Notes under the pieces: generated by a model | Told to the model about the DNA's origin: nothing | The model's database searches: none | The model's input: only the letters and a program-made list of their open reading frames with translations | Program-made: the position numbers and the translations under genes | Virus record (IMG/VR): IMGVR_UViG_3300020595_000123 | Location: 1-31,475 of that record | Strand: one strand, 5' to 3' | Length of the DNA: 31,475 nucleotides | Source of the DNA: a virus | Shown here: one piece after another, positions 1,466-23,508 of the stretch | Numbering within the stretch: the stretch's first letter is position 1 | How the letters are laid out: each line of letters opens with the position of its first letter

Positions 1466-4400
1466 TTATGTTCGTTTACCAAATTTATCACAAGGTTTAT
1501 ACTTTGGAGACCCACTAGGATCAAAACGTAAAATTTCACCACTTTTACCAAATCTAGCAGTAGCATCACTTACGTGAATCCATTGTGGGTTATCATCATC
1601 TCCCTTTTCCCATATTAATTGACCAAAGGTTAAATTATCAGCTATCCAAGTAAATACTTCATTTAATTCCTTACCACCTTTTACAGAAACAAAATCAACG
1701 GCTTCACCAAATTGGTGTTGAGAAGTTGTAGAACCCCCAATAGCAAGATTAACAGCTTTACTTCTGTAGCAACTAGTTATTAACATTTCACCAAACTCAT
1801 TAGTAATAGGGATTAAAATATTATCATCTAATGATTTTAATGCTTTTATAACTGTAGGAGTTGGGGAATTTTCTATACCTGTTGTAGTAACTGTAAGGGT
1901 GTCTAAAGGATAACTACCATCCCAAGCAACATCGTCTATATCTACTGTTTCATCTTCAACCTCTAATTTATTTTTTCCTAAAGCTTCATCAAAGTTTTGT
2001 TCTGTAGGTAATTTAGGGACTGCTATGGTTTCTAACTTAGTATACCATTTATTATTTTGAATTTCATGTGATACACCTTTAATAATCCAAATTAATGTTT
2101 GGGGGTAATATTTAGGTAAAAATCTAGTATCAACTTCTAATTTATCATATATTCGTATCCCAGAAAGTCCTTCCATAGTAACGGAAATATTTATTGGAAG
2201 CATTCCTATTTGGTTAGTTCCTAAAGTTTGTTTATCTTCTTTTATTTGAGTTTTATTAAAAATTTCATTTTCTAATTTAATAATTTCTTGAAGCCAATCT
2301 TTTTGTAATTTTACAAATTCAGGATATCTATCTGTAGGGAAATCCTTAAATTGGTAGAAATCTTCCCTCTTATTTGTTTTATCGGATATGTCTTTACCCT
2401 TTGGGGTACCTTGAGCATAACCTAGCCAAAGATATTTTAATTGGTCCTTTAATTTAGTAATTCTTTCTTCGGTTGTAGGAACTGTTATGTTATTATTTTT
2501 TCTTAATGAATCTATTTTTTCTGGGAAGAATCTATCTTTTAATCCAGAATTCCAAGATGATAAACCAGTAGCATCTGAACCTACATTGTTACTTTGAGCC
2601 TGAGCTCCGATAGTAACTTGAGTAGCAAAATCATTAGTTAATTCTGTTTTAATATTAAAATCTGTTACAAAACTACCATCTCTTCCTACTACTGATCCTG
2701 AAGAGTTTAGGGTAGGATTAATACCATAAAGATTAATAGTAGAATTTTTAACATCTTGAGTACCATAGATAGGATTTTGATCATAAATCCTCATTATTTT
2801 ATCATCTTCTAATCTAATAGAAAGTTTATTAACTCCACCTAAACAACTATTAGCGGTTTGACATAATTCATCTACAAAATCATACAAGCTAATAGTTCCG
2901 GTTTGTTCATTTCTTAGATTTTTAATAGCATCTAAAAGATATTGGTACTCAAAATAAATATTCATTATTTTCCCATGTAAAGGAAATTCTTCTTTATGAT
3001 TATTTGGGTTTACTGTACTTTCCCAACGTTCTAACTTAACTTTTGGAAATGAAAAAACACTACCAGCATTTACTTTTCCATCCCAATCATTTGTACTATT
3101 AGCTATAGTTTTTAACTCATTTTTACTGTAAGGAAAATTAGCTCTAACCATTACTTTTGATGGATCAGCGGATACATTTATGCCTGGGTTGTACATTATA
3201 TTTTTATCTGTATCCGTATCTATATCCAAGATAGGTTCATTATCTCCTTTTGAAGTATAAAGTAATAATCTATCTTTGATAAAATCTAAAATATCCCCTA
3301 AACGAATATAAAAATAAGGTTTTTCTTGAGCAAAAGTAGCAGTAGCACTAACAATTTTTCCTATAGATGTTTCAAGTCGAGTATAATTTAAACCTTCAAT
3401 TGTATCCCCTGCTTCTTGGATTTCTACAGATGTAGTTTGAAGTCCATTCTTTTGGGTATAAACTTGATTCACGGTAATTTCTTCAGCTACTAAAATTGTT
3501 TTAAAATCAGATGAAACTTGCTTATATGAACTAGCAGCAGATCTTACATTTGTTCTTGAAAAAGAAGGGGATGCTGCTGTTGCTAAAAAAGAGGTTAATG
3601 CAGATGTTTCGTTAGGTTGGGGTTGATTGGGATTTGATGTTGTTGAAGATTTTCCTCCATATTGACCATCAATATTTAAACTTTCAATTATATCACCTTG
3701 ACTGATTAAAGATAAGCTAATTTCATAATAACCAGCTTTATTAAATTCCCAGCTAAAGTTTTTTATTTTACCAAAAAACGCATCGTAATTACCATTAGAT
3801 TTTTCTCTACGTTTCTCTATTAATTGTAAGAATTGGTTAGGATTATCACTAATAACTTTATCACCATTTTTACCCGAAAGAAATATGGGTAGAAGGCTTG
3901 TTACACCTTCAGCATTAGGATTTGAAACATATTTATCATCATTATTAAAGTAAATAGAATTACCCCATTCTATAAACATAGAATAACCAATTCTACAATA
4001 TAAACTATCAATAAGGGAAAATTGTTTTTCGTTATTAGCTCTAATAGTTACTGAGGCTTCTCTTAAGGAACCCATATTACGGGACTTAATATTAAAAGAA
4101 GTTATACCAGGCATAGCACTTAAACCAAAACTAGTTCCACCAAATCCGTAAGCAGAATTATTTAATATAGAATCGGATGTTGCTAAACCCGAACGATAAT
4201 AGGGGTTTGAATATGAGCCTGAAGAGTTGACTTCAAAATAAGCAGTACCACCAAATAATACTATATTATTGGCTAATTTATTACCTAAAAAATTATCTGA
4301 GCTTCCTAAACCTAATTGTTGGAGACGTTTAGTACCATCATCAGCTAACTTTAATACTAAAACCTCTTCATTTTCAGGGTTAGGACCTGCTCCCCCATCT

Positions 4401-4645
4401 TGAGTAGTATCATTAGGAGCAGAAACAAAATTAGTTCTTGAAGAAGGTAAGTAGTATGGAGTATTTTCAATATTAACAGAAGAAGCTAATGCCACATAAG
4501 CAGATTTAGCATTTTGCCAAACAATCTCTTGATTATCTTTTTGAATTTTACCTAAACGTTCTTGCCTTTGAGCAACTTGTTTATCTACGTAAGGTTTAAA
4601 AGGCCCTCCTAGTAAATTAGTACCTTCGAAATTACTATCTGCCAT
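1466..4645 (-). CDS. Baseplate hub protein with C-terminal M15 peptidase domain
   Basis: This 1059-residue protein has a long structural region (about residues 1-900). It contains a segment typical of phage hub proteins, MPGITSFNIKSRNMGSLREA, followed by alternating beta strands. The C-terminal 120 residues form a peptidase M15 (D-Ala-D-Ala carboxypeptidase-like) domain. Visible motifs are SCYRS (about 959-963), SQHQFGEAVD with the zinc ligands H977 and D984, and WIHVS with H1024. In this family such domains cleave peptide cross-links of peptidoglycan. Its position after the gp53-like gene, and the fusion of structural and wall-cutting parts, suggest a hub or spike that opens the cell wall during injection, analogous in role to T4 gp5 with its lysozyme. 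The hub role of the N-terminal part is inferred. The M15 call is strong. Confidence 0.82.
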   Translation of the reverse strand: MADSNFEGTNLLGGPFKPYVDKQVAQRQERLGKIQKDNQEIVWQNAKSAYVALASSVNIENTPYYLPSSRTNFVSAPNDTTQDGGAGPNPENEEVLVLKLADDGTKRLQQLGLGSSDNFLGNKLANNIVLFGGTAYFEVNSSGSYSNPYYRSGLATSDSILNNSAYGFGGTSFGLSAMPGITSFNIKSRNMGSLREASVTIRANNEKQFSLIDSLYCRIGYSMFIEWGNSIYFNNDDKYVSNPNAEGVTSLLPIFLSGKNGDKVISDNPNQFLQLIEKRREKSNGNYDAFFGKIKNFSWEFNKAGYYEISLSLISQGDIIESLNIDGQYGGKSSTTSNPNQPQPNETSALTSFLATAASPSFSRTNVRSAASSYKQVSSDFKTILVAEEITVNQVYTQKNGLQTTSVEIQEAGDTIEGLNYTRLETSIGKIVSATATFAQEKPYFYIRLGDILDFIKDRLLLYTSKGDNEPILDIDTDTDKNIMYNPGINVSADPSKVMVRANFPYSKNELKTIANSTNDWDGKVNAGSVFSFPKVKLERWESTVNPNNHKEEFPLHGKIMNIYFEYQYLLDAIKNLRNEQTGTISLYDFVDELCQTANSCLGGVNKLSIRLEDDKIMRIYDQNPIYGTQDVKNSTINLYGINPTLNSSGSVVGRDGSFVTDFNIKTELTNDFATQVTIGAQAQSNNVGSDATGLSSWNSGLKDRFFPEKIDSLRKNNNITVPTTEERITKLKDQLKYLWLGYAQGTPKGKDISDKTNKREDFYQFKDFPTDRYPEFVKLQKDWLQEIIKLENEIFNKTQIKEDKQTLGTNQIGMLPINISVTMEGLSGIRIYDKLEVDTRFLPKYYPQTLIWIIKGVSHEIQNNKWYTKLETIAVPKLPTEQNFDEALGKNKLEVEDETVDIDDVAWDGSYPLDTLTVTTTGIENSPTPTVIKALKSLDDNILIPITNEFGEMLITSCYRSKAVNLAIGGSTTSQHQFGEAVDFVSVKGGKELNEVFTWIADNLTFGQLIWEKGDDDNPQWIHVSDATARFGKSGEILRFDPSGSPKYKPCDKFGKRT

Positions 4646-7108: not shown

Positions 7109-9100
7109 TTAAAGTTTACTATAGCTTAATGATTCAGCATATCCAACTTTTGATGAGTCCATGTAAACATTTGAGTCTTTTTGAGCTATTTGTTCTAGTA
7201 CAGATAACATTTTACTATCACCACCCCCACCTTTACTAATATTAGGTGATACTGCTAAGTTATCACCTTTAGCTGTCATAGCCATTTTACCATATGAATC
7301 GGTAATAGTAAAAGGACCACGTGAAGAATCTGCTATACCATCTTGAACCATCTGAGTAGAAGAAGCAACTAAAGCTCCTAAAGCTCCTGTTGCTGCTAAA
7401 GCTAGAGGTAAACCAAAAGGACCCGCCATAAACGAACCTTCAAAAATTTTAGCATAAGCAGTTATTAAACCTTTTACAGCTACTGCTGCTTGTAAAGCTG
7501 CTATACCTCCTAAAACACCTAATAAAGCACCAGCTGCAGCTTTTGATTCTGATATAGCGGCAACCATTGAAGCGAAACCATCAATTATTGGGGATAAAAT
7601 AGTAGCAATATCTCCTACGACACCTTTAATTTTTTCTAATGATGCTTCAAATTTTTCACTTGCACTTTGGGCCTGCATTTGTTGATATGATTGTTCACCA
7701 TACTTTTCAATGAAATCGTCTTGAGATAAATTTAATAATTCTTGTTGCATTACCATTTGAGCTAACTCATCACGAGACATACCTAAAGCATCAGCCGCTG
7801 CTTGTTGTTGAATTCTATTACCTGTAGCGAATGCTTCTGTAATTTCAGAATTTTTAGCAATTTCTTCTGAAAGTCCTGCTAAATCATTATCTAATGCTAA
7901 TTGTCTAGCTTTATCAAGGTTGATTTCTTTTCCAGTTAGCATCTGGAATTTTAATTCGTTTTCGATTGAGGTTTCAAATTCTAATAATGAACCCGCAATT
8001 TTATCTACTCCTTCTAAACTTAAACCTAAAGCTCTAGCTTCAGTAGCAGCTTCAGCTAATAATTGAGGAGACATTCCTAATGACACTACAATTGAAGCAG
8101 AAGCAGTAGCTATATCATTTAAAACTGCTTTAGCACTAATAGCACTATTTCTTTGTCTATTAACAGCATTAACAGTTTCTACTGTATTTTCTAAAACTCC
8201 TTCTGTATCTTCACCTTGGATTCTAGCTAGTAGTGATAATTGGGAAGCTTCTTTTACTCCTAATCCTAACTGTTTAGTTAGCATTGTCATAGTAATTAAA
8301 GTATCACCCCCAAAATCTGAAATTAAACCTGTAGTTGCTGCTAAATCTGTAAAGGATTTATTTAAATCTTTTGATGTAATTAAAACATCTTGAGATTCTA
8401 AAGCTGTTATTGCTAAACTATTCTGAAGTTGGTATGCTGATTCATAACTAATTCCTAGATTTTTTTGTAGATTAGCTATATTATCACTACCTGCTAATGC
8501 AGCTTTAGCTAAACCTATTATAGCACCTTCAGATAATATAGAAAGTTTTTCAGTATTTGTTAAATCCTCATTTAATAATTGAGCAGCTAATCCTGATTTA
8601 TCAAGAGATATTAAATAATCCATAGCTGTTTGAGCTATATTTCCTAAAATACCCCTACGAAGAATATCTTGTTTTATTTGTTCTCCTGTTGTCTTTCTTT
8701 GTGCTTCAGCTTGATCAGCTATCTCTTCATAATTAAAAACATCTTCAGCACTAATCTCTATACCTTTAGAACGAAGAGTATTAATAGCTTCACTTGCTAT
8801 TTTTCTGGCTCTATCTGCTTTTTCTTGTTCTCTAGCATATTCTTTTTGGGCAACGGCACCTTTTTTGCCTCCTTTAGCTATTTCTTCTTGTAAAGCAAGT
8901 TGTTTTTGGTTTGATTTAACAATAGCTTCTGTTGCCTTAGTTAAATCATTACTATAGGTTTTAACTACTTTTTTAGTAGCAGCATCAAATCCTTCAGTTT
9001 CTTGGGCTGCTAAATTTAAATTAGCAGTAATATCACGAAGTAACTCATTCGTTGCTTCAAATTCTTCCCTTAATTTTTTTGCTTCGTCAGATGTAGCCAT
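7109..9100 (-). CDS. Tail tape measure protein
   Basis: The protein has 663 residues. The N-terminal third is charged, heptad-rich coiled coil (for example LREEFEATNELLRDITANL and KADRARKIASEAINTLRSK). The middle is rich in Ala, Leu, Glu and Gln. A hydrophobic Ala/Gly/Leu stretch at about residues 521-580 (AAAGALLGVLGGIAALQAAV and onward) looks like membrane-inserting helices. This combination is typical of tape measure proteins, which set tail length inside the tube and help pass DNA through the membrane. It follows the gp26/gp51-like frameshift pair, the classical position for a tape measure. At about 2 kb it implies a short to medium contractile tail. The start ATG 9100 follows a promoter-like element by 13 bases. 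Confidence 0.85.
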   Translation of the reverse strand: MATSDEAKKLREEFEATNELLRDITANLNLAAQETEGFDAATKKVVKTYSNDLTKATEAIVKSNQKQLALQEEIAKGGKKGAVAQKEYAREQEKADRARKIASEAINTLRSKGIEISAEDVFNYEEIADQAEAQRKTTGEQIKQDILRRGILGNIAQTAMDYLISLDKSGLAAQLLNEDLTNTEKLSILSEGAIIGLAKAALAGSDNIANLQKNLGISYESAYQLQNSLAITALESQDVLITSKDLNKSFTDLAATTGLISDFGGDTLITMTMLTKQLGLGVKEASQLSLLARIQGEDTEGVLENTVETVNAVNRQRNSAISAKAVLNDIATASASIVVSLGMSPQLLAEAATEARALGLSLEGVDKIAGSLLEFETSIENELKFQMLTGKEINLDKARQLALDNDLAGLSEEIAKNSEITEAFATGNRIQQQAAADALGMSRDELAQMVMQQELLNLSQDDFIEKYGEQSYQQMQAQSASEKFEASLEKIKGVVGDIATILSPIIDGFASMVAAISESKAAAGALLGVLGGIAALQAAVAVKGLITAYAKIFEGSFMAGPFGLPLALAATGALGALVASSTQMVQDGIADSSRGPFTITDSYGKMAMTAKGDNLAVSPNISKGGGGDSKMLSVLEQIAQKDSNVYMDSSKVGYAESLSYSKL

Positions 9101-9113
9101 AGTTTATCTATAT

Positions 9114-9134
9114 GTTATAAATATTATTTATAAC
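9114..9134. promoter_or_regulatory. Candidate promoter element inside a perfect inverted repeat
   Basis: The plus strand reads GTTATAAATA, one central base, then TATTTATAAC: a 10-base perfect inverted repeat. The sense element AATATTTATAAC ends 13 bases before the tape measure ATG (9100). The stop codon of the gp51-like frame (9124-9126) lies inside it. The second arm also gives a sense-strand TATAAATA, identical to the T4 late -10 sequence. Confidence 0.5.
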
Positions 9135-9414
9135 TGCTTTTTGTAGGAATTTTTACAGTTCCATCCGAATTTATCATGTTAGTAGAATTAGGATTAGAGG
9201 ATTCTTTAGATTTTTTCATCATTTCTGATTGTTTATCATAATGATTTTTAATCTTAGAATAAGTAAATTTTCTTAACCATAAAGGCATATCATAAACTAC
9301 AGGCCAAGAGTACCCCCCTTGCCCATAAAAACAAATTTCGTGGATTTGAGTTAAAAAATTTAACCTATATTGTTTAGCCGAGGTTGACGTCAGGCCAAAA
9401 AAAGTTAATCCCAA
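9124..9414 (-). CDS. gp51-like tail assembly frame, probably made only by frameshifting
   Basis: This frame overlaps the end of the gp26-like gene by 41 bases in a different frame. It has no ATG. The only start-like codon before its upstream in-frame stop (9457-9459) is TTG 9414, without a ribosome binding site. The product contains IHEICFYGQGGYSWP and MPLWLRKFTYSKIKNHYD, a pattern I associate with T4 gp51-like assembly proteins. The overlap contains seven consecutive T bases in the sense strand, where a +1 (or -2) slip joins the two frames. The fusion would have about 327 residues. The frame lies directly before the tape measure gene, as with lambda G/GT and similar tail chaperones. The homology is moderate. 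The frameshift is inferred from the start-codon problem and the slippery run. Confidence 0.72.
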   Translation of the reverse strand: MGLTFFGLTSTSAKQYRLNFLTQIHEICFYGQGGYSWPVVYDMPLWLRKFTYSKIKNHYDKQSEMMKKSKESSNPNSTNMINSDGTVKIPTKSSYK

Positions 9415-10108
9415 TTGGGAGATTGACTGGCTTGTTTGAAGTAGAGGGAAAAAAAGTTAAATCCACGTCCGGTTGAATTTTTGAAATATGCTCTCTAAAT
9501 GATCTAGCATCTCGAGCTAAAAAGGCTTGATCAATAAATTCTCGAATAGTTTTAGATTCTCTATCTCCATTAATAGAAGTAACCATATATTTTAAACGAG
9601 TTGTTAATTCGGGAGATTCTTCTTTTTTTAATTTTTTTAATCCTTCTAATTCTCTATTAATTTTACCTTCATCGCCTTGAGTTAAAAATTTAAATGTAAT
9701 TTCATTATTTGAGGCTGGGAGTGTGAATGTAAATTCATTTTGTCCTTTAGTATATAAAGATTCATCTAAAGGTTTATTATCAATTTCCGATAAATCAACA
9801 ACTTCTTCTACACCATTATAAGTAAATTTATATTCTGCTCCATATCCTAAAATACGAGCAGCAATCATTACAGCATTTTTATCACCAATAACTAAATCAC
9901 TATAATCAAATTTAGTTACAATTAATGATTTTAATAATTTATCTAATACAGTCCCATTTTGAATATAATTTTGATTAGTAAGGATATCTTCTTCCTTAGC
10001 AGTCATATATTTAATTTCAATAGTACCGTTTGATAATGGGTGACCTTCAGGATATAATAAACCTTTTGAAGGTAAGTCGATTGTTTCTGTTGGTAAGTTA
10101 AAACTCAT
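9374..10108 (-). CDS. gp26-like baseplate hub / tail assembly protein
   Basis: The protein has 244 residues. Its N-terminus, LPSKGLLYPEGHPLSNGTIE followed by KYMTAKEEDIL, is the hallmark of the T4_baseplate family (gp26-like), with VLDKLLKSLIV and IGDKNAVMIAARILGYG following. The C-terminal third is helical (EFIDQAFLARDARSFREHI). In T4-type phages the gp26 and gp51 proteins act in hub assembly. In this position, between tail tube and tape measure, the protein may also act as a tape-measure chaperone. The stop codon at 9374-9376 lies past a T7 run that could send some ribosomes into the gp51-like frame. A terminator separates the gene from the tail tube gene. Confidence 0.85.
   Translation of the reverse strand: MSFNLPTETIDLPSKGLLYPEGHPLSNGTIEIKYMTAKEEDILTNQNYIQNGTVLDKLLKSLIVTKFDYSDLVIGDKNAVMIAARILGYGAEYKFTYNGVEEVVDLSEIDNKPLDESLYTKGQNEFTFTLPASNNEITFKFLTQGDEGKINRELEGLKKLKKEESPELTTRLKYMVTSINGDRESKTIREFIDQAFLARDARSFREHISKIQPDVDLTFFPSTSNKPVNLPIGINFFWPDVNLG
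9397..9403 (-). other. Putative programmed frameshift site (T7 run)
   Basis: The sense strand reads AAC TTT TTT TGG in the gp26-like frame. A one-base forward slip of the Phe tRNA from TTT to TTT gives GGC CTG ACG in the gp51-like frame. A two-base backward slip reaches the same frame with full re-pairing in the P site. Frameshifting at this point of tail operons, before the tape measure, is well documented in many phages. Here it is inferred from sequence only. Confidence 0.6.
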
Positions 10109-10201: not shown

Positions 10202-10690
10202 TTAGAAGTTCAAGATACAGTAATCTGGTTGAACTGTCATTGTTAGGTTAATTGCTGTATTCTCAGTATCCCAACCATATTCACCAAAACCAGCTTCAGT
10301 AATTAAAGCACCTTTGATAATCCATTCTGATACTACATCACCTACAGGACCTAATACGTTAAATGTCAAATCTTTCTTGTAGAAATCTGAATAACCATCT
10401 CTACCAGTTACTGATTCGTGGTGTAGTCTTACCCATTCCATTACTGCTTGTGCACCTGAAGGTGTGATTGGATCAAATAGTGTAAACTGGATAGGACCCC
10501 ATGTTGATTTACCTTTAACGAAACGTTGAACGTTAATATGGTTTAAAGCCACTGTGCCTTGACTTAATGTTACAGCACCTACACCTTTAATTGTGTAAGC
10601 TGGGAACCCATCAATATACATGATGAATCTATTCGCTTGTTTTGGCTCAAACGCTGTAAAAAATATTTCGTTAGGATCTAATACTGCCAT
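10202..10690 (-). CDS. Tail tube protein (gp19-like)
   Basis: The protein has 162 residues, close to T4 gp19 (about 163). It is beta-rich and has the features of contractile-tail tube subunits: FEPKQANRFIMYIDGFPAYT near the start, WGPIQFTLFDPI, AVMEWVRLHHES, and a final strand pair AINLTMTVQPDYCIL. It polymerises into the inner tube through which DNA passes. It lies directly after the sheath gene, the usual order, and is followed by a strong terminator. Its base composition is slightly richer than that of its neighbours, as expected for a highly expressed virion gene. Confidence 0.92.
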   Translation of the reverse strand: MAVLDPNEIFFTAFEPKQANRFIMYIDGFPAYTIKGVGAVTLSQGTVALNHINVQRFVKGKSTWGPIQFTLFDPITPSGAQAVMEWVRLHHESVTGRDGYSDFYKKDLTFNVLGPVGDVVSEWIIKGALITEAGFGEYGWDTENTAINLTMTVQPDYCILNF

Positions 10691-10734: not shown

Positions 10735-12480
10735 TTACGCTGGGAAAGTAGCTCCCGTTGGTAATACGTTAAAGTCTAAGTAAATGAATTCTGCTGTTTT
10801 AGTAGGTTGTAAGTAAATAGCACCTACTAATTGGTTTCTATCAATTACATCCGGAGTATTATTGCTATCATCCATTACTACTTTGAAAGCATATAAACCT
10901 TGTCTTTGTTGAACTGTTTCTAGATATGGGTTTACTGCTGCTAAGAAATTATTTCTTGTAGCTGCTGTGTTTTGTTCAAATACTAATGTTTGAGCAACTT
11001 GTCCAATGTAAGATTTAAGAGCAATTAATAATCTTCTAACATTTACTCTATCAAGCGCGGAAGCTTGTTTTTGTAATGTTTTCTGACCGTATACTACTGT
11101 TCCTGTTCCTGGGAATGATGCAATTGGGTTGATATTTGCTTCATATAAAGTATCTCTATTACCTTGAGATAATTTTCTTTCAGGGCGAATTACGTTAGTT
11201 AATCCTCCTCTGTTGATACCCGCTGGAGCAAACCATGGCTCGCTTACACTGTCGTTAAATGCGTAAACTCCCCCCATCATTGTTGATGCTGGTACGAAAA
11301 CATTTTTACCTGAATCTGGTTCGAATGTTTGTAACCAAGGCCAGTACATAGCTGCATATGAAGTATTTCTAGCATCACCTTGAGCTGTTGCATTAGCAAT
11401 AGTTGAACCATATACTACAGGATCTAAAACATAAAGATTATCTCCTCTAGTTTGTGTATTGTTTATTGCTGCTGTAGTTTGTGATGGGTGAACTTTATCA
11501 AATAATCCAGGTGTTAATAAAGCATTAAATTGGTAATCATCTTGGTTTGATAATAAATTAATCATATCAGTATAATCACTACCAATTAAACCTTGAGTTA
11601 CACCTGTAACACCTCCTGAACTAGTACCTGCTTTTTCATAGTAATTACCACCACCAGGGTATATTGAGATGTTTTTACCTTCACCACCACTAAATGAACC
11701 ATTAGAAGAACCTGAACCTAATGCTGGGATGGAACCTGTAAAGTTAGATTTTGGATCACCACCATTATTTAAATAATTTGGGGTTGCACTACCTACAGAT
11801 TTTACTCTTACATATCTAGAAGCATTAGGATATGAACCTGAAATTTCTAAATAGTTTTCTGTTGAATTATAGTTATATCTAGTATCACCTATTACTCTAG
11901 AAATAAAGTTATCTGAGTTAGGATCTAATGATAAATTATTCCATGTTTCTAAAACAATAGGGTTATCATTTCTATCATCACCTCTTCTAATTACTAATGA
12001 GAAAGTACCAGCAGATTCGTTACGAGCAACTACTTGCCATCTTACGTTATCTACTGAGCCAGAGTCTAATGAACCTGAAGTAACTGAACTAGTATTGTTA
12101 AAAATAACACCTTTATCAATAGCTTCTAAAGTAAATGAAGTACCATTACTAGAACTATCAGCAACTTCTGCTTCAGCATAATCCCATGCTGTAAGTGAGC
12201 CTGATACTACTCTAGTAACTAATAAAGTGTTACCACCATTGTTAAAGTAATTATAAGCAGCAATTGAAGTAAAATAAGTATATACTTCACTACCACTATC
12301 AAATGTAGTTCCAAATCTGTTTTGATAATCACTATAAGATGTAACTACTGTAGGTACTTCTACAGGTCCTTTTACTGCGGGACCTACAAGAGCAGCTCCT
12401 ACTTGAACTGGCTGCTGTGTGATAAATGACTGGTCATTCTCTCTTGCTAATACACCGGGTGATATTAATGTTTCTGCCAT
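10735..12480 (-). CDS. Tail sheath protein (gp18-like)
   Basis: The protein has 581 residues. The N-terminus (LISPGVLARENDQSFITQQP) and the segment VGAALVGPAVKGPVEVPTVV then SYSDYQNRFG are typical of contractile sheaths. So are NGGNTLLVTRVV and a C-terminal domain with RNTLYEANINPIASFPG-like text (here RDTLYEANINPIASF), VYGQKTLQ and ALDRVNVRRLLIALK. The middle (about residues 230-290) is a Ser/Gly-rich, probably surface-exposed insertion. The sheath contracts around the tube to drive it into the host envelope. The tail tube gene follows directly. Start ATG 12480 follows a promoter-like element by 20 bases. Confidence 0.93.
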   Translation of the reverse strand: MAETLISPGVLARENDQSFITQQPVQVGAALVGPAVKGPVEVPTVVTSYSDYQNRFGTTFDSGSEVYTYFTSIAAYNYFNNGGNTLLVTRVVSGSLTAWDYAEAEVADSSSNGTSFTLEAIDKGVIFNNTSSVTSGSLDSGSVDNVRWQVVARNESAGTFSLVIRRGDDRNDNPIVLETWNNLSLDPNSDNFISRVIGDTRYNYNSTENYLEISGSYPNASRYVRVKSVGSATPNYLNNGGDPKSNFTGSIPALGSGSSNGSFSGGEGKNISIYPGGGNYYEKAGTSSGGVTGVTQGLIGSDYTDMINLLSNQDDYQFNALLTPGLFDKVHPSQTTAAINNTQTRGDNLYVLDPVVYGSTIANATAQGDARNTSYAAMYWPWLQTFEPDSGKNVFVPASTMMGGVYAFNDSVSEPWFAPAGINRGGLTNVIRPERKLSQGNRDTLYEANINPIASFPGTGTVVYGQKTLQKQASALDRVNVRRLLIALKSYIGQVAQTLVFEQNTAATRNNFLAAVNPYLETVQQRQGLYAFKVVMDDSNNTPDVIDRNQLVGAIYLQPTKTAEFIYLDFNVLPTGATFPA

Positions 12481-12797: not shown

Positions 12798-15125
12798 TTA
12801 TTTTTTGTTATTTAATAATTTTTTTACTTCAGTAAATACTTTATTGGGGTGGATTGATTTTTGACATATATGTTGTTTATCAGTTCCTTTCCAAATAGGG
12901 CACCAATTCCAATCACCAGCATCAAATTTAAAATTAGGATTTACCCAACAAGAGTTACATACAGATTCATTACGTACTCTGGTTACTTTTGTTTGAAATT
13001 CATGTTCTTCTGAGGTAAAATTATTAATCATAACTGTACGTTTACCTAAAGCCCAATTAAACCAAGCTAACCCAGAACTAAGGCCTATAAAAGTTTCAGC
13101 ATGTAATAAATAATTAGCTACTACATCGAAGGGTTGATTCCAAGAATTAATAGTATTTGGAATATCTAATTTATCTTTACTTAAAACAACAACTTTATAA
13201 CCTGACTGGTTTAAAAGTTTAGTTAAAATTGTCCAGTACTTATAAGGCCATTCTTTACATCCTGCTGTGGATTGAGGGGAAATTACTACATATTTATCTT
13301 TAATTGGTTTAGCCTTTTTAAAAAAATTAATTCCATAGTTAACTTCTTTAAAATCTAATCCTAATATATCTGTAGCAGTTTGTTGTAATGGGAACAAATT
13401 TACTTGGTTTGGGTGTAAATTTTTATCATTCCAAAAACCATTTTCTCCTCTAAACCATCCAATTTTATATTTAGCTCTAATACCTTGAACAGATTCACCT
13501 GGGGTGGTAAATTCAATGTTTTTATATGCTTCTAACCCCTCAAACCAATCATTATGGAAGGTAGATACTACTACTTTACAGTTATGTTTTTTAGCGAATT
13601 CTACAACATAAGGGGTCCATGCTAAAGTATCACCTATAGAACTAGATTCAAGAGATATTAATACTTTTTCACCTGTTAGATCTAAAGTATCTACAATTTC
13701 ACCATTAACTTTAATAATCCATTTAGTATAATATTCTCTTCCACAAGAAGTCCACATATTTTTACCAATAGTATTACTAAAAATAGTTTTATTAGTATTA
13801 GCATCAATAAATTCTATTAAATATTGTTTATCTTCATCACCTAAAATTTCAACTTTAGGACCTTCTAAATACGAAATATGAATTTCATTAGGTTTAGGTG
13901 CTGGGAGAGTGTAGTTTTCTATAAATTCTTGGATAGTATTTTTACCAATTTCTGCTACACGATCCCAATTAAAATCTCTATGGATAATTTTAGCTTCTTC
14001 TACAGCACGTTTTTTATGATCTGTATAATTTTCAAAAGCATCACGCATTACACGAGCTAAATCTTCAAAATCAGGTTCATAATAATTTCCAGGCACATGG
14101 TTACTTTCTAACATTTTAGCATACCTAGAGTATGTATTATTACTAGTAGGTCTTTCACCTAATATTTTTACGGGAAGTCCTTTTCCTTTAGCAAATTCCA
14201 TTTGAGCAGAACATGATGAGTATATAGAAGGGGTACCACAGGCCATTGCTTCAATTAAAGGTAAATTCCATCCTTCTGCTCTAGCACATGATAAAAACAC
14301 ATGACCATTTTTTAAATATGTAATATAATCTTCTCGTGATGGGAAATGTTTAATTTTTAGTCGGGGATCTTCTAAATTAAATCCTTTAAGTCTATCTTCA
14401 GTTGTTTCAAAACCATCAATGTCTTTACCCCACATATTATCAATAGATAATATAAGATCAATTGGTTCTTCAGGTTTAAACTCTTTAAGGAAAGCTTCAA
14501 TGATTTCTTTAGTAGATTTTCTATAGTCCCAACGACCAAATAAAATAAATTTAAATCTACCATCTACGTAATCTAATGTGGTTTGGGGGTCTTCTGGGAA
14601 GAAAGTATCAACATCAACTCCTTCAGGTACAACTTTTACTTTATTAGGATCGGCACCTTGTTCAATAGTACATTGGGCTTGCCAATTTGAAGGAACCCAT
14701 AATTGGTCAAATTCACACCATTTATTAAAAAATCCTTCAGGTTGTCTTGTAGATTCCCACACATTAAACCCTATTTTAGGACCCTGGTAATTATGGTAAA
14801 AGTAATGGTGATTTGTTTCTGCTAATATTAAATTAATATTATGGTTAAAATTTTCACCATAATTACTATATATTTCTTTATCTATTAACTGGTGGTTGTT
14901 ATCAAAAACTGTTTGGGTTGAAAGGATTTTTTTATCTTGGTCTGTAAGATATTCTTCACCATTATGAGGTTCATCACTTATACCATCCCAACTATTACCA
15001 ACAGTAAAGTTTCTAAATTTTAATGGGAAGTAGTTTGAAATACCTCTAAAGAAATCACGAGTGTGGTTGTTGTATCCAGTTGTACCTACATAAGGACCAT
15101 GCCCATATATTTTTGGTTGTTTCAT
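12798..15125 (-). CDS. Two-domain glycosyltransferase: GT4 fused to TibC-like O-heptosyltransferase
   Basis: The protein has 775 residues. Residues about 100-400 form a GT4-type glycosyltransferase: VPEGVD (166-171), FGRWDYRKS (196-204), and EGWNLPLIEAMACGTP with the E-x7-E pair E284/E292. A small beta domain (about 413-480) is followed by a GT9-like domain that closely resembles bacterial autotransporter heptosyltransferases (TibC, Aah). It has SLESSSIGDTLAW with candidate catalytic D499, LQQTATDILGLDF, STAGCKEWPYKYW, and GLSSGLAWFNWALGKRTVMI (nucleotide-sugar site). It also has a four-cysteine finger, CNSC (723/726), WCP (742) and C754, matching the iron finger of TibC. TibC transfers heptose from an ADP-sugar to serines of repetitive surface proteins. 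The gene follows four Ser/Thr-rich fibre genes, so those fibres are the likely acceptors (inference). The actual sugar is unknown. Confidence 0.88.
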   Translation of the reverse strand: MKQPKIYGHGPYVGTTGYNNHTRDFFRGISNYFPLKFRNFTVGNSWDGISDEPHNGEEYLTDQDKKILSTQTVFDNNHQLIDKEIYSNYGENFNHNINLILAETNHHYFYHNYQGPKIGFNVWESTRQPEGFFNKWCEFDQLWVPSNWQAQCTIEQGADPNKVKVVPEGVDVDTFFPEDPQTTLDYVDGRFKFILFGRWDYRKSTKEIIEAFLKEFKPEEPIDLILSIDNMWGKDIDGFETTEDRLKGFNLEDPRLKIKHFPSREDYITYLKNGHVFLSCARAEGWNLPLIEAMACGTPSIYSSCSAQMEFAKGKGLPVKILGERPTSNNTYSRYAKMLESNHVPGNYYEPDFEDLARVMRDAFENYTDHKKRAVEEAKIIHRDFNWDRVAEIGKNTIQEFIENYTLPAPKPNEIHISYLEGPKVEILGDEDKQYLIEFIDANTNKTIFSNTIGKNMWTSCGREYYTKWIIKVNGEIVDTLDLTGEKVLISLESSSIGDTLAWTPYVVEFAKKHNCKVVVSTFHNDWFEGLEAYKNIEFTTPGESVQGIRAKYKIGWFRGENGFWNDKNLHPNQVNLFPLQQTATDILGLDFKEVNYGINFFKKAKPIKDKYVVISPQSTAGCKEWPYKYWTILTKLLNQSGYKVVVLSKDKLDIPNTINSWNQPFDVVANYLLHAETFIGLSSGLAWFNWALGKRTVMINNFTSEEHEFQTKVTRVRNESVCNSCWVNPNFKFDAGDWNWCPIWKGTDKQHICQKSIHPNKVFTEVKKLLNNKK

Positions 15126-15191: not shown

Positions 15192-18100
15192 TTATTTTTT
15201 ATAAACTGCTTTTTCTAAAGCTTCTACTCTTTCAAGTAGTTCTTTATTTGATTGAATTAATACTGCTACTAATTTATCGTATTTAACAGCTTTATATCCA
15301 TTTTTTCTAGTAGTTACTAGTTCTGGGAACTGGGATTCAATTTCTTGGGCTATTACACCAATTTCAGTACCGGTTTTACCACTAACTTCATTCCAATCGA
15401 ATGTATAACCTCCTAATTGAGATAATTTTGCTGAAGCAGATATAATAGGTTTAATATTTTCTTTTAATCTCTTATCTGAAGAATAATAAGCAATAATATC
15501 ACCACCTACTCTTAATTCTTGAGCTGTAGTACCTGTTACATAATCTAATTCGTTAGCACCATCTCTATATATGGTATTCCCGGATCCATCCGCCATAATA
15601 ACGCGGTATGCTGTATTGGCAGCAGCTGATGTAATACTAAAGCTGTTACCTGATGAACCTGAAGTTCCTGAAGAACCTGATGAACCATTGTTACCATTGT
15701 TACCATTGTTTCCTGAGTTTCCTGAGCTACCTGAAGTACCTGATGAACCACTTGAACCATCGTTACCATCGTTACCATTGTTTCCGCTGTTACCCGAGCT
15801 ACCTGAAGTACCTGATGAACCACTTGAACCATCGTTACCATCGTTACCATCGTTTCCTGAGTTTCCTGAAGTACCTGAAGAGCCTGATGAGCCTGAGTTT
15901 CCTGAAGTACCTGATGAACCACTTGAACCATCGTTACCATCGTTTCCTGAGTTTCCTGAAGTACCTGATGAACCACTTGAACCATCGTTACCATCGTTTC
16001 CTGAGTTTCCTGAAGTACCTGATGAACCACTTGAACCATCGTTACCATCGTTACCATCGTTTCCTGAGTTTCCTGAAGTACCTGATGAACCACTTGAACC
16101 ATCGTTACCATCGTTACCATCGTTTCCTGAGTTTCCTGAAGTACCTGATGAACCTGATGAGCCTGAGTTTCCTGAAGTACCTGATGAACCTGATGAGCCT
16201 GAGTTTCCTGAAGTACCTGAGCTACCTGAGCTACCTGAGTTTCCTGATGAGCCTGAAGTACCTGAGCTACCTGAGGTACCTGATGAACCTGATGAGCCTG
16301 AAGTACCAGAATTACCTGAAACACCTGATGAACCTGATGTACCAGATGAACCTGATGAACCTGAATTACCTGAACTACCAGAAGTACCTGAGCTGCCTGA
16401 TGTACCTGAAGAACCTGAAGAACCTGATGAACCATTGTTACCATTGTTTCCTGAGTTTCCTGAGCTACCTGAAGTGCCAGATGAGCCTGAAGAACCTGAT
16501 GAACCATTGTTACCGTTGTTTCCTGAGTTTCCTGAACTACCTGAAGTGCCAGATGAGCCTGAAGAACCTGATGAACCATTGTTACCGTTGTTTCCTGAGT
16601 TTCCTGAGCTGCCTGATGTACCTGAAGAACCTGATGAACCATTGTTACCATTGTTTCCTGAGTTTCCTGAACTACCTGAGGTACCAGATGAGCCTGAGGT
16701 ACCAGATGAGCCTGAAGAACCTGATGAACCATTGTTACCGTTGTTTCCTGAGTTTCCTGAGCTACCTGAAGTGCCAGATGAGCCTGAAGTACCGCTTGAA
16801 CCTGAGCTACCTGAGTTACCTGAATTACCAGATGAGCCTGATGTACCTGAAGAGCCTGAGGTACCAGATGAGCCTGAAGAACCTGATGAACCATTGTTAC
16901 CATTGTTTCCTGAGTTTCCTGAGCTACCTGAAGTACCACTTGAACCTGAACTACCTGAGTTACCTGAATTACCAGATGACCCTGATGTACCAGATGAGCC
17001 TGATGTTCCTGAACTACCTGATGAACCTGAGTTACCTGAGTTACCTGATGAACCTGAAGTACCTGAGCTACCTGATGTACCAGATGAACCTGATGAACCT
17101 GAAGAGCCTGAGTTACCTGAGTTACCTGATGAGCCTGAAGTACCTGAGCTACCTGAGGTACCAGATGAACCTGATGAGCCTGAAGAACCCGAGTTACCTG
17201 ATGAGCCTGAAGTGCCAGATGAACCTGAAGTGCCAGATGAACCTGATGAGCCTGAAGATCCTGAGTTACCAGATGAGCCTGAAGTACCTGAACTACCTGA
17301 AGTACCGGATGAGCCTGATGAACCTGAAGAACCCGAGTTACCTGATGAGCCTGAGGTACCAGATGAGCCTGAAGTACCTGAGCTACCTGAGCTACCTGAG
17401 CTACCTGAGTTACCTGAACTACCAGAAGTACCTGAACTACCTGAAGTGCCTGATGAGCCTGAAGATCCTGAGGTACCAGATGAGCCTGAAGAGCCTGAAG
17501 AGCCTGAGTTACCTGATGAGCCTGATGTACCAGATGAGCCTGATGTACCAGATGAGCCTGATGTACCAGATGAGCCTGAAGAGCCTGAAGAGCCTGAGTT
17601 ACCTGATGAGCCTGAAGTACCAGATGAGCCTGAAGTACCTGAGCTACCTGAGCTACCTGAGCTACCTGAGCTACCTGAGTTACCAGATGAGCCTGAAGTA
17701 CCAGATGAGCCTGATGAGCCTGAGTTACCTGATGAACCTGAAGTACCTGATGATCCAGATGTTCCTGAGCTACCAGAAGTACCTGAGCTACCGCTTGAGC
17801 CTGAGTTACCTGATGAACCTGAAGTGCCAGATGAACCTGAAGTACCGGATGAGCCTGATGAACCTGAGTTACCTGAATTACCTGATGAACCTGAAGTACC
17901 GGATGAGCCTGATGAACCTGAGTTACCTGAAGTACCAGATGAGCCTGAAGTACCAGATGAGCCTGAAGTACCCGAGCTACCACTTGAACCACTATTTCCT
18001 GAAGAACCTGAAGTACCTGAGCTACCAGAAGTACCTGAGCTGCCTGAAGTGCCTGATGAACCTGATGAGCCTGAAGTACCAGATGAACCAGATGAGCCTG

Positions 18101-19247
18101 AAGTACCAGCTACACCAGAAGTACCTGATGAACCTGATGTACCTGATGAGCCTGATGTACCTGATGAGCCTGATGAGCCTGATGTACCCGGAGCACCACT
18201 AGTACCAGAAGTACCATCAGCTCCATTTACACCTGATAAACCTGATGTACCTGATGTACCTGATGAGCCTGATGAGCCTGATGAGCCTGATGAGCCTGAT
18301 GTACCTGCTACACCAGATGTACCTGAGCTACCTGAAGTGCCAGATGAACCTGATGAGCCTGAAGACCCTGAGTTACCTGATGAGCCTGAAGTACCAGATG
18401 AGCCTGATGAGCCTGAATTTCCTGATGTTCCTGATGAGCCTGATGAGCCTGATGAACCTGAATTACCTGAACTACCCGAAGTACCTGAAGAGCCTGATGA
18501 GCCCGAATTTCCTGAAGTACCTGATGAACCTGATGAACCTGACGTACCTGAAGAACCGGACGTGCCCGACGAACCAGATGAACCAGATGTACCTGAACTA
18601 CCTGAAGAACCTGAGTTACCTGATGTACCAGATGAGCCTGAACTACCTGAAGAACCTGAGTTACCTGATGTACCTGAACTACCAGAAGAACCTGATGAAC
18701 CAGATGTACCTGATGAACCACTTGTTCCTGAAGAACCTGATGTACCCGAGCTACCACTTGAACCACTATTTCCTGAACTACCTGATGTACCAGATGAGCC
18801 TGAAGTTCCTGATGAGCCTGAGCTACCTGAGTTACCTGAAGATCCACTTGTACCAGATGAGCCTGAAGTACCTGAGCTACCTGAAGTACCTGAGCTACCA
18901 GATGAGCCTGAAGTACCTGAAGTACCTGAAGCACCATCTACACCCGAAGTACCTGAACTACCTGATGAGCCTGAAGTACCTGATGAGCCTGAAGTACCTG
19001 ATGAGCCTGAAGTACCTGAACTACCTGAGCTACCTGAGTTACCAGATGAGCCTGAACTACCTGATGTACCTGAAGAACCTGATGTTTGAGCTGCTTCTCT
19101 ATAAGCAACTTGTCCATCAGGTTTTAATACTAATACTGTTTCTTCGGTTGAGGCTTCAGGGACTTCGCCTGGTACTATGTTTACCGATCCGCTAAATTGG
19201 GAAGAACCTGATACAATCAGGCCTTTTTTAATTTTAAATTCGTTCAT
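15192..19247 (-). CDS. Giant collagen-like tail fibre A with S74 self-cleaving chaperone
   Basis: The protein has 1351 residues. Residues 1-55 form a small beta domain (EFKIKKGLIVSGSSQ, VPEASTEETVLVLKPDGQVA) shared with fibre B, probably the attachment head. Residues about 56-1200 are unbroken Gly-X-Y triplets, mostly GSS and GTS, with GNS throughout and GNN/GND clusters towards the C-terminal end. Short breaks such as GLSGVNGADG occur. The last 150 residues hold a tip segment and an S74 intramolecular chaperone domain: SSDKRLKENI, with cleavage expected at S1257/D1258 by analogy with endosialidase, then GVIAQEIESQFPELV and a closing coiled coil. This domain trimerises the fibre and then cuts itself off. 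The protein is likely a trimeric, long, flexible adhesin. Exact repeat number may be affected by assembly of repeats. Confidence 0.9.
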   Translation of the reverse strand: MNEFKIKKGLIVSGSSQFSGSVNIVPGEVPEASTEETVLVLKPDGQVAYREAAQTSGSSGTSGSSGSSGNSGSSGSSGTSGSSGTSGSSGTSGSSGSSGTSGVDGASGTSGTSGSSGSSGTSGSSGTSGSSGTSGSSGNSGSSGSSGTSGSSGTSGSSGNSGSSGSSGTSGSSGTSGSSGTSGSSGSSGSSGTSGNSGSSGSSGSSGTSGNSGSSGSSGTSGSSGSSGTSGSSGTSGSSGSSGTSGNSGSSGSSGTSGSSGNSGSSGSSGSSGTSGNSGSSGSSGTSGSSGNSGSSGSSGSSGTSGSSGTSGVAGTSGSSGSSGSSGSSGTSGTSGLSGVNGADGTSGTSGAPGTSGSSGSSGTSGSSGTSGSSGTSGVAGTSGSSGSSGTSGSSGSSGTSGSSGTSGSSGTSGSSGNSGSSGSSGTSGSSGTSGSSGTSGNSGSSGSSGTSGSSGNSGNSGSSGSSGTSGSSGTSGSSGNSGSSGSSGTSGSSGTSGSSGTSGSSGNSGSSGSSGTSGSSGNSGSSGSSGSSGSSGTSGSSGTSGSSGNSGSSGSSGSSGTSGSSGTSGSSGTSGSSGNSGSSGSSGSSGTSGSSGSSGTSGSSGTSGSSGNSGSSGSSGSSGTSGSSGTSGSSGNSGSSGSSGSSGTSGSSGTSGSSGNSGSSGSSGSSGTSGSSGTSGSSGNSGSSGSSGSSGTSGSSGTSGSSGNSGNSGSSGSSGSSGTSGSSGTSGSSGNSGNSGSSGSSGTSGSSGTSGSSGNSGNSGSSGSSGTSGSSGNSGNNGNNGSSGSSGSSGTSGSSGTSGSSGNSGNSGSSGSSGTSGSSGTSGSSGNSGNNGNNGSSGSSGSSGTSGSSGTSGSSGNSGNNGNNGSSGSSGTSGSSGNSGNNGNNGSSGSSGSSGTSGSSGNSGNNGNNGSSGSSGSSGTSGSSGNSGNNGNNGSSGSSGSSGTSGSSGTSGSSGNSGSSGSSGTSGSSGVSGNSGTSGSSGSSGTSGSSGTSGSSGNSGSSGSSGTSGNSGSSGSSGTSGNSGSSGSSGTSGNSGNDGNDGNDGSSGSSGTSGNSGNDGNDGNDGSSGSSGTSGNSGNDGNDGSSGSSGTSGNSGNDGNDGSSGSSGTSGNSGSSGSSGTSGNSGNDGNDGNDGSSGSSGTSGSSGNSGNNGNDGNDGSSGSSGTSGSSGNSGNNGNNGNNGSSGSSGTSGSSGNSFSITSAAANTAYRVIMADGSGNTIYRDGANELDYVTGTTAQELRVGGDIIAYYSSDKRLKENIKPIISASAKLSQLGGYTFDWNEVSGKTGTEIGVIAQEIESQFPELVTTRKNGYKAVKYDKLVAVLIQSNKELLERVEALEKAVYKK
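15648..19082 (-). repeat. Gly-X-Y coding repeat array of fibre A
   Basis: About 3.4 kb of 9-base triplet units encode Gly-Ser-Ser, Gly-Thr-Ser, Gly-Asn-Ser, Gly-Asn-Asn and Gly-Asn-Asp. Synonymous codon differences (GGT/GGA, TCA/AGT) are scattered through it, so the array is conserved as protein more than as DNA. It leaves long stop-free frames on both strands. Confidence 0.95.
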
Positions 19248-19296
19248 CGTTTATTTTTCTGTTTTCATTTCCAACAGGTAATTCCGTTATGTCTGG

Positions 19297-19306
19297 TATA
19301 CATATT
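19297..19306 (-). promoter_or_regulatory. Candidate promoter element (sense AATATGTATA)
   Basis: This G variant of the element lies about 50 bases before the fibre A ATG (19247) and just after the fibre B terminator. Confidence 0.45.
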
Positions 19307-19314
19307 ATAATAAT

Positions 19315-19349
19315 ATAGAAAAAACAAAGTGCCCCTCAATGAGGGGCAC
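19315..19349 (-). terminator. Rho-independent terminator after fibre B
   Basis: A perfect 9-bp stem, GTGCCCCTC with GAGGGGCAC (19329-19337 with 19341-19349), encloses an AAT loop. The sense-strand tract TTTGTTTTTT follows. Confidence 0.93.
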
Positions 19350-19373
19350 CTTTCTTTATAGTAAAGCTATTTA

Positions 19374-21488
19374 TTAAGCTTTAAGTCTAGTATTATGGAA
19401 TACTACTCTAATTGTACTACCTGTACTATTACTTACTGTTAAGGCAAAATTACCTCCACCTGAAGTCACATTAAATACAATTCCATCTGTATTACCAATA
19501 TCTGTAGTACTACTTTCAGCTAAAACAGCACCTGTTGAATTAGCAGTTATCCTTACAGTACCCGTACGTTGATGGGATCTATCTGTACTATAAGCTACAT
19601 AGTCTAAAATTAAACCAGTATATGTAGTTCCACTAATAGAAGGTTGAATATTACCATCAGCACCATTAGCGACTTCAATTCTATCTGAGGTGGTTTCTAA
19701 ATACTCACCTACAGTAAGAACATCTGTAGTAGCATCAAACGTTAAGTTTGGTTGTGCTGTACCACTAGTACCATTAGAATTATCTACAGTGATAAGTCTA
19801 TTAGTATCTGGTGTAGATAAATTAATTAACCCTGATGTACCACTTGAACCTGATGATCCTGAAGTACCAGATGAACCTGAACTACCTGATGATCCTGAAG
19901 TACCAGATGAACCTGAACTACCTGATGATCCAGATGTACCAGATGAACCTGATGTACCTGAACTACCTGATGTACCTGAAGAACCTGAGCTACCTGATGT
20001 ACCTGAAGAACCTGAGCTACCTGATGTACCTGAACTTCCTGATGTACCTGAGCTTCCTGATGAGCCTGAACTACCAGATGTGCCTGATGAACCAGATGAA
20101 CCAGCGCTTCCTGAGGTACCTGAGCTTCCTGATGAGCCTGAAGTACCTGAGCTACCTGAAGTACCTGATGAGCCTGAAGAACCTGAAGTACCGCTTGAAC
20201 CTGAACTACCTGATGTACCAGATGAGCCTGAAGTACCAGATGAGCCTGATGAACCTGAAGTACCTGATGAACCTGAAGATCCTGAAGTACCTGAACTACC
20301 AGATGTGCCTGAAGAACCTGAAGATCCTGAGCTGCCTGATGTGCCTGAACTACCTGATGAGCCTGAACTACCAGATGTGCCTGATGAACCAGATGAACCA
20401 GCACTTCCTGAAGTACCTGAGCTACCTGAACTACCAGATGTACCAGATGATCCTGATGTACCTGAACTACCAGATGAACCAGATGTGCCTGAGCTACCTG
20501 AAGAACCTGATGATCCTGAAGTACCTGATGATCCTGAAGTACCTGATGAACCTGAAGTACCTGATGAACCTGAACTACCTGCGCTTCCTGAAGTACCTGA
20601 ACTACCTGAAGAACCTGAAGTACCTGAAGAACCTGAAGTACCAGATGAACCTGAAGAACCTGATGATCCTGAAGTACCTGATGAACCTGAACTACCTGCG
20701 CTTCCTGAAGTACCTGATGAACCTGAAGAACCTGATGATCCTGAAGTACCTGATGAACCTGAGCTACCTGCGCTTCCTGAAGTACCTGATGAACCTGAAG
20801 AACCTGAAGTACCTGAGCTACCAGATGTGCCTGAGCTACCAGATGTACCAGATGAGCCTGATGAGCCTGATGAACCTGATGTACCTGAAGATCCTGAACT
20901 ACCTGCGCTTCCTGAAGTACCTGAACTACCTGAAGAACCTGAAGTACCTGATGAACCTGAAGTACCTGATGAACCTGATGTACCAGAAGAACCAGATGAG
21001 CCTGAACTACCTGATGTACCTGAGCTACCCGATGAACCAGCACTTCCTGAAGTACCTGAACTACCTGAAGAACCTGAGCTACCTGATGTACCTGAAGAAC
21101 CTGAGCTACCTGATGTACCAGATGAACCTGATGTACCAGATGAACCTGATGTGCCTGATGAACCAGATGAGCCTGATGTTCCTGATGAACCAGATGAACC
21201 CGATGAACCTGATGTACCTGAAGATCCTGAACTACCAGAAGTACCCGAACTACCTGAAGAACCTGAAGTACCACTTGAGCCTGAGCTGCCTGATGTGCCT
21301 GAACTACCTGATGAACCTGAAGTTTGTGCTGATTCTCTGTAGGCTACTTGACCTGTTGATGTGAGCACTAAAACAGTTTCCTCTGTAGGGGCTTCAGGAA
21401 CATTACCTGGAACAATAAATACTGAACCTGATAACTGTGAAGAGCCGGATACTATGAGACCCTTCCTGATTTTAAATTCGTTAGCCAT
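19374..21488 (-). CDS. Collagen-like tail fibre B
   Basis: The protein has 704 residues. The first 56 (EFKIRKGLIVSGSSQ, VPEAPTEETVLVLTSTGQVA) are clearly paralogous to the head of fibre A. Residues about 57-553 are Gly-X-Y triplets, nearly all GSS and GTS, with occasional GSA. The C-terminal 151 residues form a beta-rich tip (LTFDATTDVLTVGEYL, YTGLILDYVAYSTD, RTGTVRITANSTG). It is related to the tip of fibre C and has no S74 chaperone. The shared head suggests that A and B occupy the same or equivalent docking sites, as alternative or mixed fibres (inference). ATG 21488 is the only sensible start. Confidence 0.88.
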   Translation of the reverse strand: MANEFKIRKGLIVSGSSQLSGSVFIVPGNVPEAPTEETVLVLTSTGQVAYRESAQTSGSSGSSGTSGSSGSSGTSGSSGSSGTSGSSGSSGTSGSSGSSGSSGTSGSSGSSGTSGSSGTSGSSGTSGSSGSSGTSGSSGSSGSSGTSGSAGSSGSSGTSGSSGSSGSSGTSGSSGTSGSSGTSGSSGSSGTSGSAGSSGSSGTSGSSGSSGSSGTSGSSGTSGSSGTSGSSGSSGTSGSAGSSGSSGTSGSSGSSGSSGTSGSAGSSGSSGTSGSSGSSGSSGTSGSSGTSGSSGSSGTSGSAGSSGSSGTSGSSGTSGSSGTSGSSGSSGSSGTSGSSGSSGTSGSSGTSGSSGSSGTSGSAGSSGSSGTSGSSGSSGSSGTSGSSGSSGSSGTSGSSGTSGSSGSSGTSGSSGSSGTSGSSGTSGSSGSSGTSGSSGSSGTSGSSGTSGSSGSSGTSGSAGSSGSSGTSGSSGSSGSSGTSGSSGTSGSSGSSGTSGSSGSSGTSGSSGTSGSSGTSGSSGSSGSSGTSGSSGSSGSSGTSGSSGSSGTSGLINLSTPDTNRLITVDNSNGTSGTAQPNLTFDATTDVLTVGEYLETTSDRIEVANGADGNIQPSISGTTYTGLILDYVAYSTDRSHQRTGTVRITANSTGAVLAESSTTDIGNTDGIVFNVTSGGGNFALTVSNSTGSTIRVVFHNTRLKA
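19830..21320 (-). repeat. Gly-X-Y coding repeat array of fibre B
   Basis: About 1.5 kb of 9-base units encode mostly Gly-Ser-Ser and Gly-Thr-Ser, with Gly-Ser-Ala at irregular intervals. The unit length keeps the frame under any change in copy number. Confidence 0.95.
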
Positions 21489-21522
21489 AGAGAATTTGTG
21501 TTGTTTTTTAAATTATTTTAAC

Positions 21523-21535
21523 GTTAATAAATATA
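21523..21535 (-). promoter_or_regulatory. Weak candidate promoter element (sense TATATTTATTAAC)
   Basis: A diverged copy of the recurrent element lies about 35 bases before the fibre B ATG (21488), in the short gap after the fibre C stop. Confidence 0.35.
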
Positions 21536-21546
21536 TATAAAACTAG

Positions 21547-23388: not shown

Positions 23389-23445
23389 CTATATTGTAAT
23401 TGTATTATTAAATAATACTGTTCTTCACTCTTCCAAACAGGGTTT

Positions 23446-23456
23446 ATTATAAATAT
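23446..23456 (-). promoter_or_regulatory. Candidate promoter element (sense ATATTTATAAT)
   Basis: This element directly follows the fibre D terminator and lies about 57 bases before the fibre C ATG (23388). Confidence 0.45.
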
Positions 23457-23484
23457 GAAAAAAAGCCCCTCAAATGAGGGGCTC
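23456..23484 (-). terminator. Rho-independent terminator after fibre D
   Basis: An 8-bp stem, AGCCCCTC with GAGGGGCT (23464-23471 with 23476-23483), encloses an AAAT loop. A sense-strand run of seven T follows. Confidence 0.93.
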
Positions 23485-23508
23485 TTAAACATTTAATTAA
23501 ACTGTTTT

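Follow-up and report, generated by a model that had tools for sequence, protein, structure and literature searches.

Two overlapping minus-strand reading frames in an IMG/VR virus record of 31,475 bases, analyzed as a whole stretch and referred to here as the window, are very probably joined by a +1 slip on a U run, which would yield a long tail assembly chaperone beside a short one. A programmed frameshift joining gp26-like and gp51-like frames had originally been predicted for this overlap, and the survey of relatives bears it out: frame 2 lies at +1 in 303 of 305 distinct junctions, the site is found in all 303, some relatives lack a start codon for frame 2, and double coding runs from the site. 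The evidence gathered here is that of sequence and comprises the overlap, the frame relation, site conservation, double coding, start-less relatives, homology, and gene order; from it we infer the slip itself and its direction, with +1 preferred. The rate of the shift, the ratio of the two products, and their chaperone role are extrapolated from lambda and T4.

Overlapping frames next to the tape measure-like gene

The window encodes a gp23 major capsid protein (PF07068; E value, 2.7e-63), pointing to a phage T4-like virus. The features of the tail region considered below are as follows.

7109..9100, minus strand: tape measure-like protein, 663 aa, named from its position and from the immuto annotation of its counterpart
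9124..9402, minus strand: frame-2 extension (TAC C-terminal part, gp51-like), FFGLT...SSYK then stop, from the ORF and conserved-domain alignments; without a convincing start of its own
9124..10108, minus strand: inferred long product TAC-NC, 327 aa by +1 (328 aa if −2), built from both frames
9374..10108, minus strand: short tail assembly chaperone (TAC-N, T4 gp26-like), an ORF of 244 aa ending ...INFFWPDVNLG then stop
9389..9403, minus strand: putative shift site TTT TTT TGG CCT GAC; 14-nt invariant block in alignment A3, YTT-T in 303/303 +1 junctions, CCT in 111/111
9412..9414, minus strand: TTG, the sole conventional start (ATG/GTG/TTG) in the stretch leading from the preceding frame-2 stop to the site, without a Shine-Dalgarno-like sequence
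10202..10690, minus strand: tail tube protein (phrog_4542; E value, 7.7e-21)
10735..12480, minus strand: tail sheath protein (phrog_23, E value, 1.3e-76; PF04984)

The two overlapping ORFs sit between the tail tube and tape measure-like genes, as in G/GT-type chaperones. That the pair would lie just ahead of the tape measure gene had been foreseen, and the tape measure-like ORF (9100 to 7109) does come next, with the tail tube gene preceding. Several other minus-strand genes were recorded in the window. A 1,059-aa tail-cluster protein (1466 to 4645) has a Peptidase_M15 domain (PF08291) close to the end and is possibly a tail hub with a built-in peptidase. A 775-aa protein encoded between the sheath and collagen-like genes (12798 to 15125) carries the glycosyltransferase domains PF00534 and PF01075, and four large collagen-repeat ORFs (PF01391), one of them ending in a Peptidase_S74 chaperone, stand in tandem at 15192 to 25590. 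Long antisense ORFs on the plus strand over 15192 to 25590 are probably by-products of the collagen repeats.

At the junction the sense strand reads ATT AAC TTT TTT TGG CCT GAC, and its seven T residues (9403 to 9397) are read by frame 1 as TTT TTT TGG. Frame 2 is at +1 relative to frame 1 (equivalently −2) and is open on the minus strand for 96 aa, between TTG 9414 and its stop at 9124. As first described, it has neither an ATG nor a ribosome-binding site ahead of it, TTG 9414 being the sole start and showing no Shine-Dalgarno-like sequence; the first in-frame ATG is codon 39, which lies past the site and within the conserved domain stretch VYDMPLWLR. The 15-mer spanning the T-run context, TTTTTTTGGCCTGAC, occurs once in the window versus 0 expected, and this context is not due to chance. 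Among 120 occurrences read out of IMG/VR, 119 were this same chaperone junction, and the 15-mer is nearly diagnostic of it.

In the proposed mechanism, most ribosomes would finish frame 1 at the stop at 9374 to give the short chaperone of 244 aa, and a minority would slip one base forward on the U run. With the second UUU (9400 to 9398) in the P site and UGG waiting in the A site, tRNA-Phe would move to the overlapping UUU (9399 to 9397); base 9397 would be skipped and frame 2 would resume at GGC (9396 to 9394) CUG ACG, producing the long chaperone of 327 aa. The junction peptide of the window is predicted to contain ...INFFGLTSTSAK under +1 or ...INFFFGLTSTSAK, with one Phe more, under −2; for Flavobacterium phage immuto the predicted peptides are ...DGGVDIPIGVSFLGLTPEYR and ...GVSFLFGLTPEYR, respectively. 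Taking lambda gpG/gpGT as the model, the tape measure protein would be coated by both forms, and tail tube subunits would be brought in by the domain that only the long form has.

The +1 site is compact and very well conserved, and a classical stimulator is apparently not required. In 39 sequences, RNAalifold predicted no pairs for a conserved RNA structure at the site, MFE windows near it were only mildly below shuffles, and a Shine-Dalgarno-like upstream stimulator, looked for in 111 loci, was present in just 6. Separately, an upstream run, ACTTTTTTTCCC (9446..9457, minus strand), 42 to 54 nt before the shift site, showed excess synonymous conservation in about half of the clade. Its codons were TTT for Phe in 67/68 and CCC for Pro in 55/65, and frame +1 was open from this run through to the main site in most loci, not all. 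The run is a candidate second slip site or RNA element.

Conservation of the junction and double coding

A first IMG/VR search with the frame-1 protein as the query yielded 80 relatives. In those keeping both ORFs, frame 2 was always at +1, and the junction took the form TTT TTT TGG CCT GA, TTT CTT TGG CCT GA, or TTT CTT TAC CCT GAC. Because one of the six search patterns covered the junction, the search was repeated with the frame-2 (gp51-like) domain alone, its first 12 codons being left out of the query; this site-blind search returned the +1 relation and the site in 80/80 loci. Pooling all loci fetched, some of which had been selected by the 15-mer TTTTTTTGGCCTGAC itself, gave the 305 distinct junction sequences, and an in-frame YTT followed by T was present in every one of the 303 with the +1 relation. 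In the two exceptions (L325 and L340), the second ORF occupied a different frame and had an ATG of its own (ATGGAGAACATTGAC and ATGAATATTGAC), and the sites had decayed to TTC TTG TAT CCT and TTC CTT TGG CCA. These loci act as a natural control. Loss of the run in relatives keeping both frames had been named in the original prediction as an outcome that would count against it. The check favored the shift: both loci without the site had gained a separate ATG. A seemingly odd site in L168 (GAG TTT TGA) was an artifact of taking the last YTTT, and a normal site was present.

Isolates carrying the +1 junction were Flavobacterium phage immuto, Microcystis phage Mel-JY01, and Rhodothermus phage RM378. 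Judging from few records, the main-clade hosts would be Flavobacterium, Rhodothermus, and the sources of Bacteroidota MAG contigs, with Microcystis as the exception. The immuto record annotates frame 2 as a 36-aa ORF beginning at an internal codon (L081, 4175 to 4285), and in Listeria phage LIS04 the frame-2 ORF carries no annotation (L175, 3211 to 3442).

Codon choice around the site was analyzed in 111 non-redundant loci of the main clade. The Phe codon ahead of the P site was TTT in 111/111 loci, and Phe codons at the site were never TTC, compared with a Phe usage of 855 TTT to 140 TTC (14% TTC) in gp26 bodies; log10 P for the invariant TTT was about −10 with loci treated as independent and shared ancestry ignored. 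Codon-usage probabilities overstate the case because of this treatment, and the double-coding pattern holds regardless of them. The 0-frame Pro codon was likewise CCT in all 111 loci, versus 35% CCT usage in gp26 bodies, and frame +1 over this codon always encoded Leu, mostly by CTG but also by CTA, CTT, or CTC. CCT would be fixed in frame 1 because frame +1 needs Leu there, and the combination of the two argues for translation in frame +1 starting at the site. Judged from these codons, double coding starts exactly at the shift site. Frame 2 was not maintained upstream of it, with a stop 3 to 9 nt ahead in several loci (3 nt in L046, L072, L111, and others).

Direction of the proposed shift and alternative explanations

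A +1 and a −2 slip on the seven-T sense run had been proposed as equally able to re-pair. The run itself was confirmed (9403 to 9397), but the two directions are not equally open, +1 being the better supported. In a −2 shift the P-site tRNA would move back two bases on the U run and add one extra Phe (328 aa), as is known for phage Mu (PMC5009743). The T7 run permits this, and the invariant TTT at the first Phe (111/111 main-clade loci; log10 P about −10 given codon usage, loci taken as independent) would suit it. However, the TTC TTT TGG variant, seen in 8 distinct contexts from a more distant group, has just four T and keeps the same frame relation; it speaks against −2 because tRNA-Phe would have to re-pair on UCU, whereas the move from UUU to UUU (+1) is allowed. 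The TTC TTT CGT site of Streptococcus phage GXN1 argues likewise, and LR756508 (TTT CTA) also favors +1. A −2 shift is unlikely on this evidence, and the preferred direction is +1, with the P-site tRNA slipping from YUU onto UUU.

Variants of the run also bear on RNA polymerase slippage, in which the homopolymer of seven T would give rise to mRNAs of altered length. The frame relation is kept where the T7 run is broken, as in TTT CTT TGG (immuto, L021, and L052), and junction and frame survive both this break (TTTCTTT) and reduction to four T (TTCTTTT), leaving transcriptional slippage extremely unlikely. The chance that an assembly or sequencing error in the homopolymer has split what is really one ORF is practically negligible: homopolymers are error prone in general, but the +1 relation recurs across hundreds of independent contigs, is present in isolates, and holds at loci without a long homopolymer, and since independent isolates carry the junction it is not an assembly error.

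It is very unlikely that frame 2 is instead a separate gene, perhaps coupled to frame 1, that is translated from TTG 9414 or from a near-cognate codon, for instance CTG within GGC CTG. Other T4-like phages do have an ATG at or just past the stop, L325 and L340 have an ATG of their own, and the TTG of 9414 occurs in the window and many relatives, but it is missing from many others. This TTG is there because the codons for PIG dictate it (ATT GGG; ATT GGN), and it is gone when those residues or codons change. No ATG, GTG, or TTG stands in frame 2 ahead of the conserved domain in 16 of the 111 non-redundant loci, and no Shine-Dalgarno sequence was seen. A CTG start was ruled out, as the Leu is kept through CTA, CTT, or CTC in some loci. 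Independent initiation would also leave the TTT invariance unexplained, and the +1 slip on YUU-U is retained below as the preferred reading.

Relation to known tail assembly chaperones

The short form matched the baseplate hub family phrog_150 (E value, 4.7e-9) and gave an E value of 0.0011 with PF12322 T4_baseplate, where its 19.2 bits fell below the Pfam cutoff of 24.5. Set directly against the small T4 gp51 profile alone, the +1 fusion gave no significant match, and therefore the link to T4 runs through the T4-like phages with a −1 shift. In hhalign comparisons, the fusions from nine such phages match T4-type gp51 over the full length (E value, 1.3e-25), and the +1 fusion aligns with these −1 fusions across 263 columns, the junctions falling in register (E value, 1.4e-7); T4 gp26 in turn aligns with T4 gp51 (E value, 4.7e-19). 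By these profile alignments, the window pair is a T4-type short/long tail assembly chaperone pair, and the frame-2 extension is homologous to the gp51 C-terminal domain by way of its alignment with the −1 fusions. The short form and the extension were folded as two separate parts. AlphaFold returned a pLDDT of 92 for the short form, whose predicted structure matched T4-like baseplate hub proteins (BFVD models) in Foldseek, and three predicted helices with a pLDDT of 70 for the extension. Among the PDB matches listed, the sole chaperone was the HK97 chaperone 2ob9, a weak hit (E value, 1.5; probability, 0.28), and searching PDB sequences with the gp26 profile yielded no useful match.

T4 genes 26 and 51 are divergent, and they are indeed separate genes, as the original prediction had it. 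The further suggestion that T4 is a contrast making a fused form notable does not stand, as T4 already has both forms, gp26 being the short one and gp51 the in-frame long one, according to PMC10885494, citing Vladimirov 2022 (Vladimirov, Gautam, and Davidson, Virology 2022;566:9-15). A fused product is therefore to be expected; what differs is how it is made. The T4 proteins are homologous to the window pair and follow the same short/long logic, but they come from two separate genes. T4-like phages are described in PMC10885494 and PMC12846349 (citing Vladimirov 2022) as carrying either short and long chaperone genes or poly-T −1 sites, whereas the window clade uses +1. Neither published mode (−1 shift or separate long gene) is found here, where frame 2 is at +1 and many relatives have no separate start.

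The cyanophages P-SSM2, S-PM2, S-RIM8, and S-CREM2, together with VH7D, 65.2, BUCT608, phiM9, and OLIVR6, have a gp51-like ORF that overlaps the gp26 end at ...FF, as in the window. Unlike the window, these nine phages have U_UUU_UUC or U_UUU_UUG and the −1 frame, and several have an ATG near the stop. Such sites with a gp51-like ORF at −1 were recorded at L180 to L186, L190, and L191 (cyanophages, Aeromonas 65.2, Vibrio VH7D, Stenotrophomonas BUCT608, and rhizobiophages), and in Aeromonas 65.2 and Vibrio VH7D this ORF is without annotation. Stenotrophomonas jumbo phage RAS14 has AGT TTT TTT ATC at the gp26 end (L179, near 3283), again with the gp51-like ORF at −1. Isolates in which the long chaperone lacks an annotation or is annotated from a wrong start include immuto, LIS04, and Aeromonas 65.2.

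Lambda gpG/gpGT, and the chaperone shift in general (Xu 2004; PMC5009743), occupies the same place between the tail tube and tape measure genes. The extension also arises near the end of the short ORF, as in the window, but the shift is −1 in lambda and +1 in the window clade. A 2016 review described the chaperone frameshift as conserved in long-tailed phages except T4 (PMC5009743), and the present data fit T4 as a case where a separate long gene stands in for the shift. In HF1-group haloviruses, +1 was predicted at TTT-CGC in the chaperone pair (PMC7230728). This is also a +1 shift in a myovirus chaperone pair on a UUU codon, but the viruses are archaeal and their site differs from that of the window. 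In Streptococcus phage GXN1 the end of gp26 carries TTC TTT CGT together with a +1 ORF (L177, 2483 to 3232); this site is closer than the window's to the HF1 TTT-CGC and also resembles the influenza PA-X +1 site. The +1 site of E. coli prfB is CUU UGA. The window clade shares with it YUU followed by U and a P-site slip, and the CTT TGG variants match prfB in the P site; it differs in having a sense codon (UGG, UAU, or UAC) in place of the stop and no internal Shine-Dalgarno sequence.

No report of a +1 chaperone shift in T4-like phages was found in the literature searched, mostly without subscription papers. Tail-chaperone frameshifting and T4-like chaperones with their −1 or duplicated forms were already known; the +1 form in a large clade looks new. 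For bacteria in which Shine-Dalgarno pairing plays little part, it would offer a clean system to study +1 slippage on UUU-U. A large T4-like clade, probably infecting mostly Bacteroidota, is likely to make its long chaperone via +1 on YUU-U followed by a sense codon (UGG, UAU, or UAC), with neither a Shine-Dalgarno sequence nor conserved RNA structure, and the T4 superfamily would then hold +1, −1, separate start, and gene duplication as interchangeable routes to one short/long pair.
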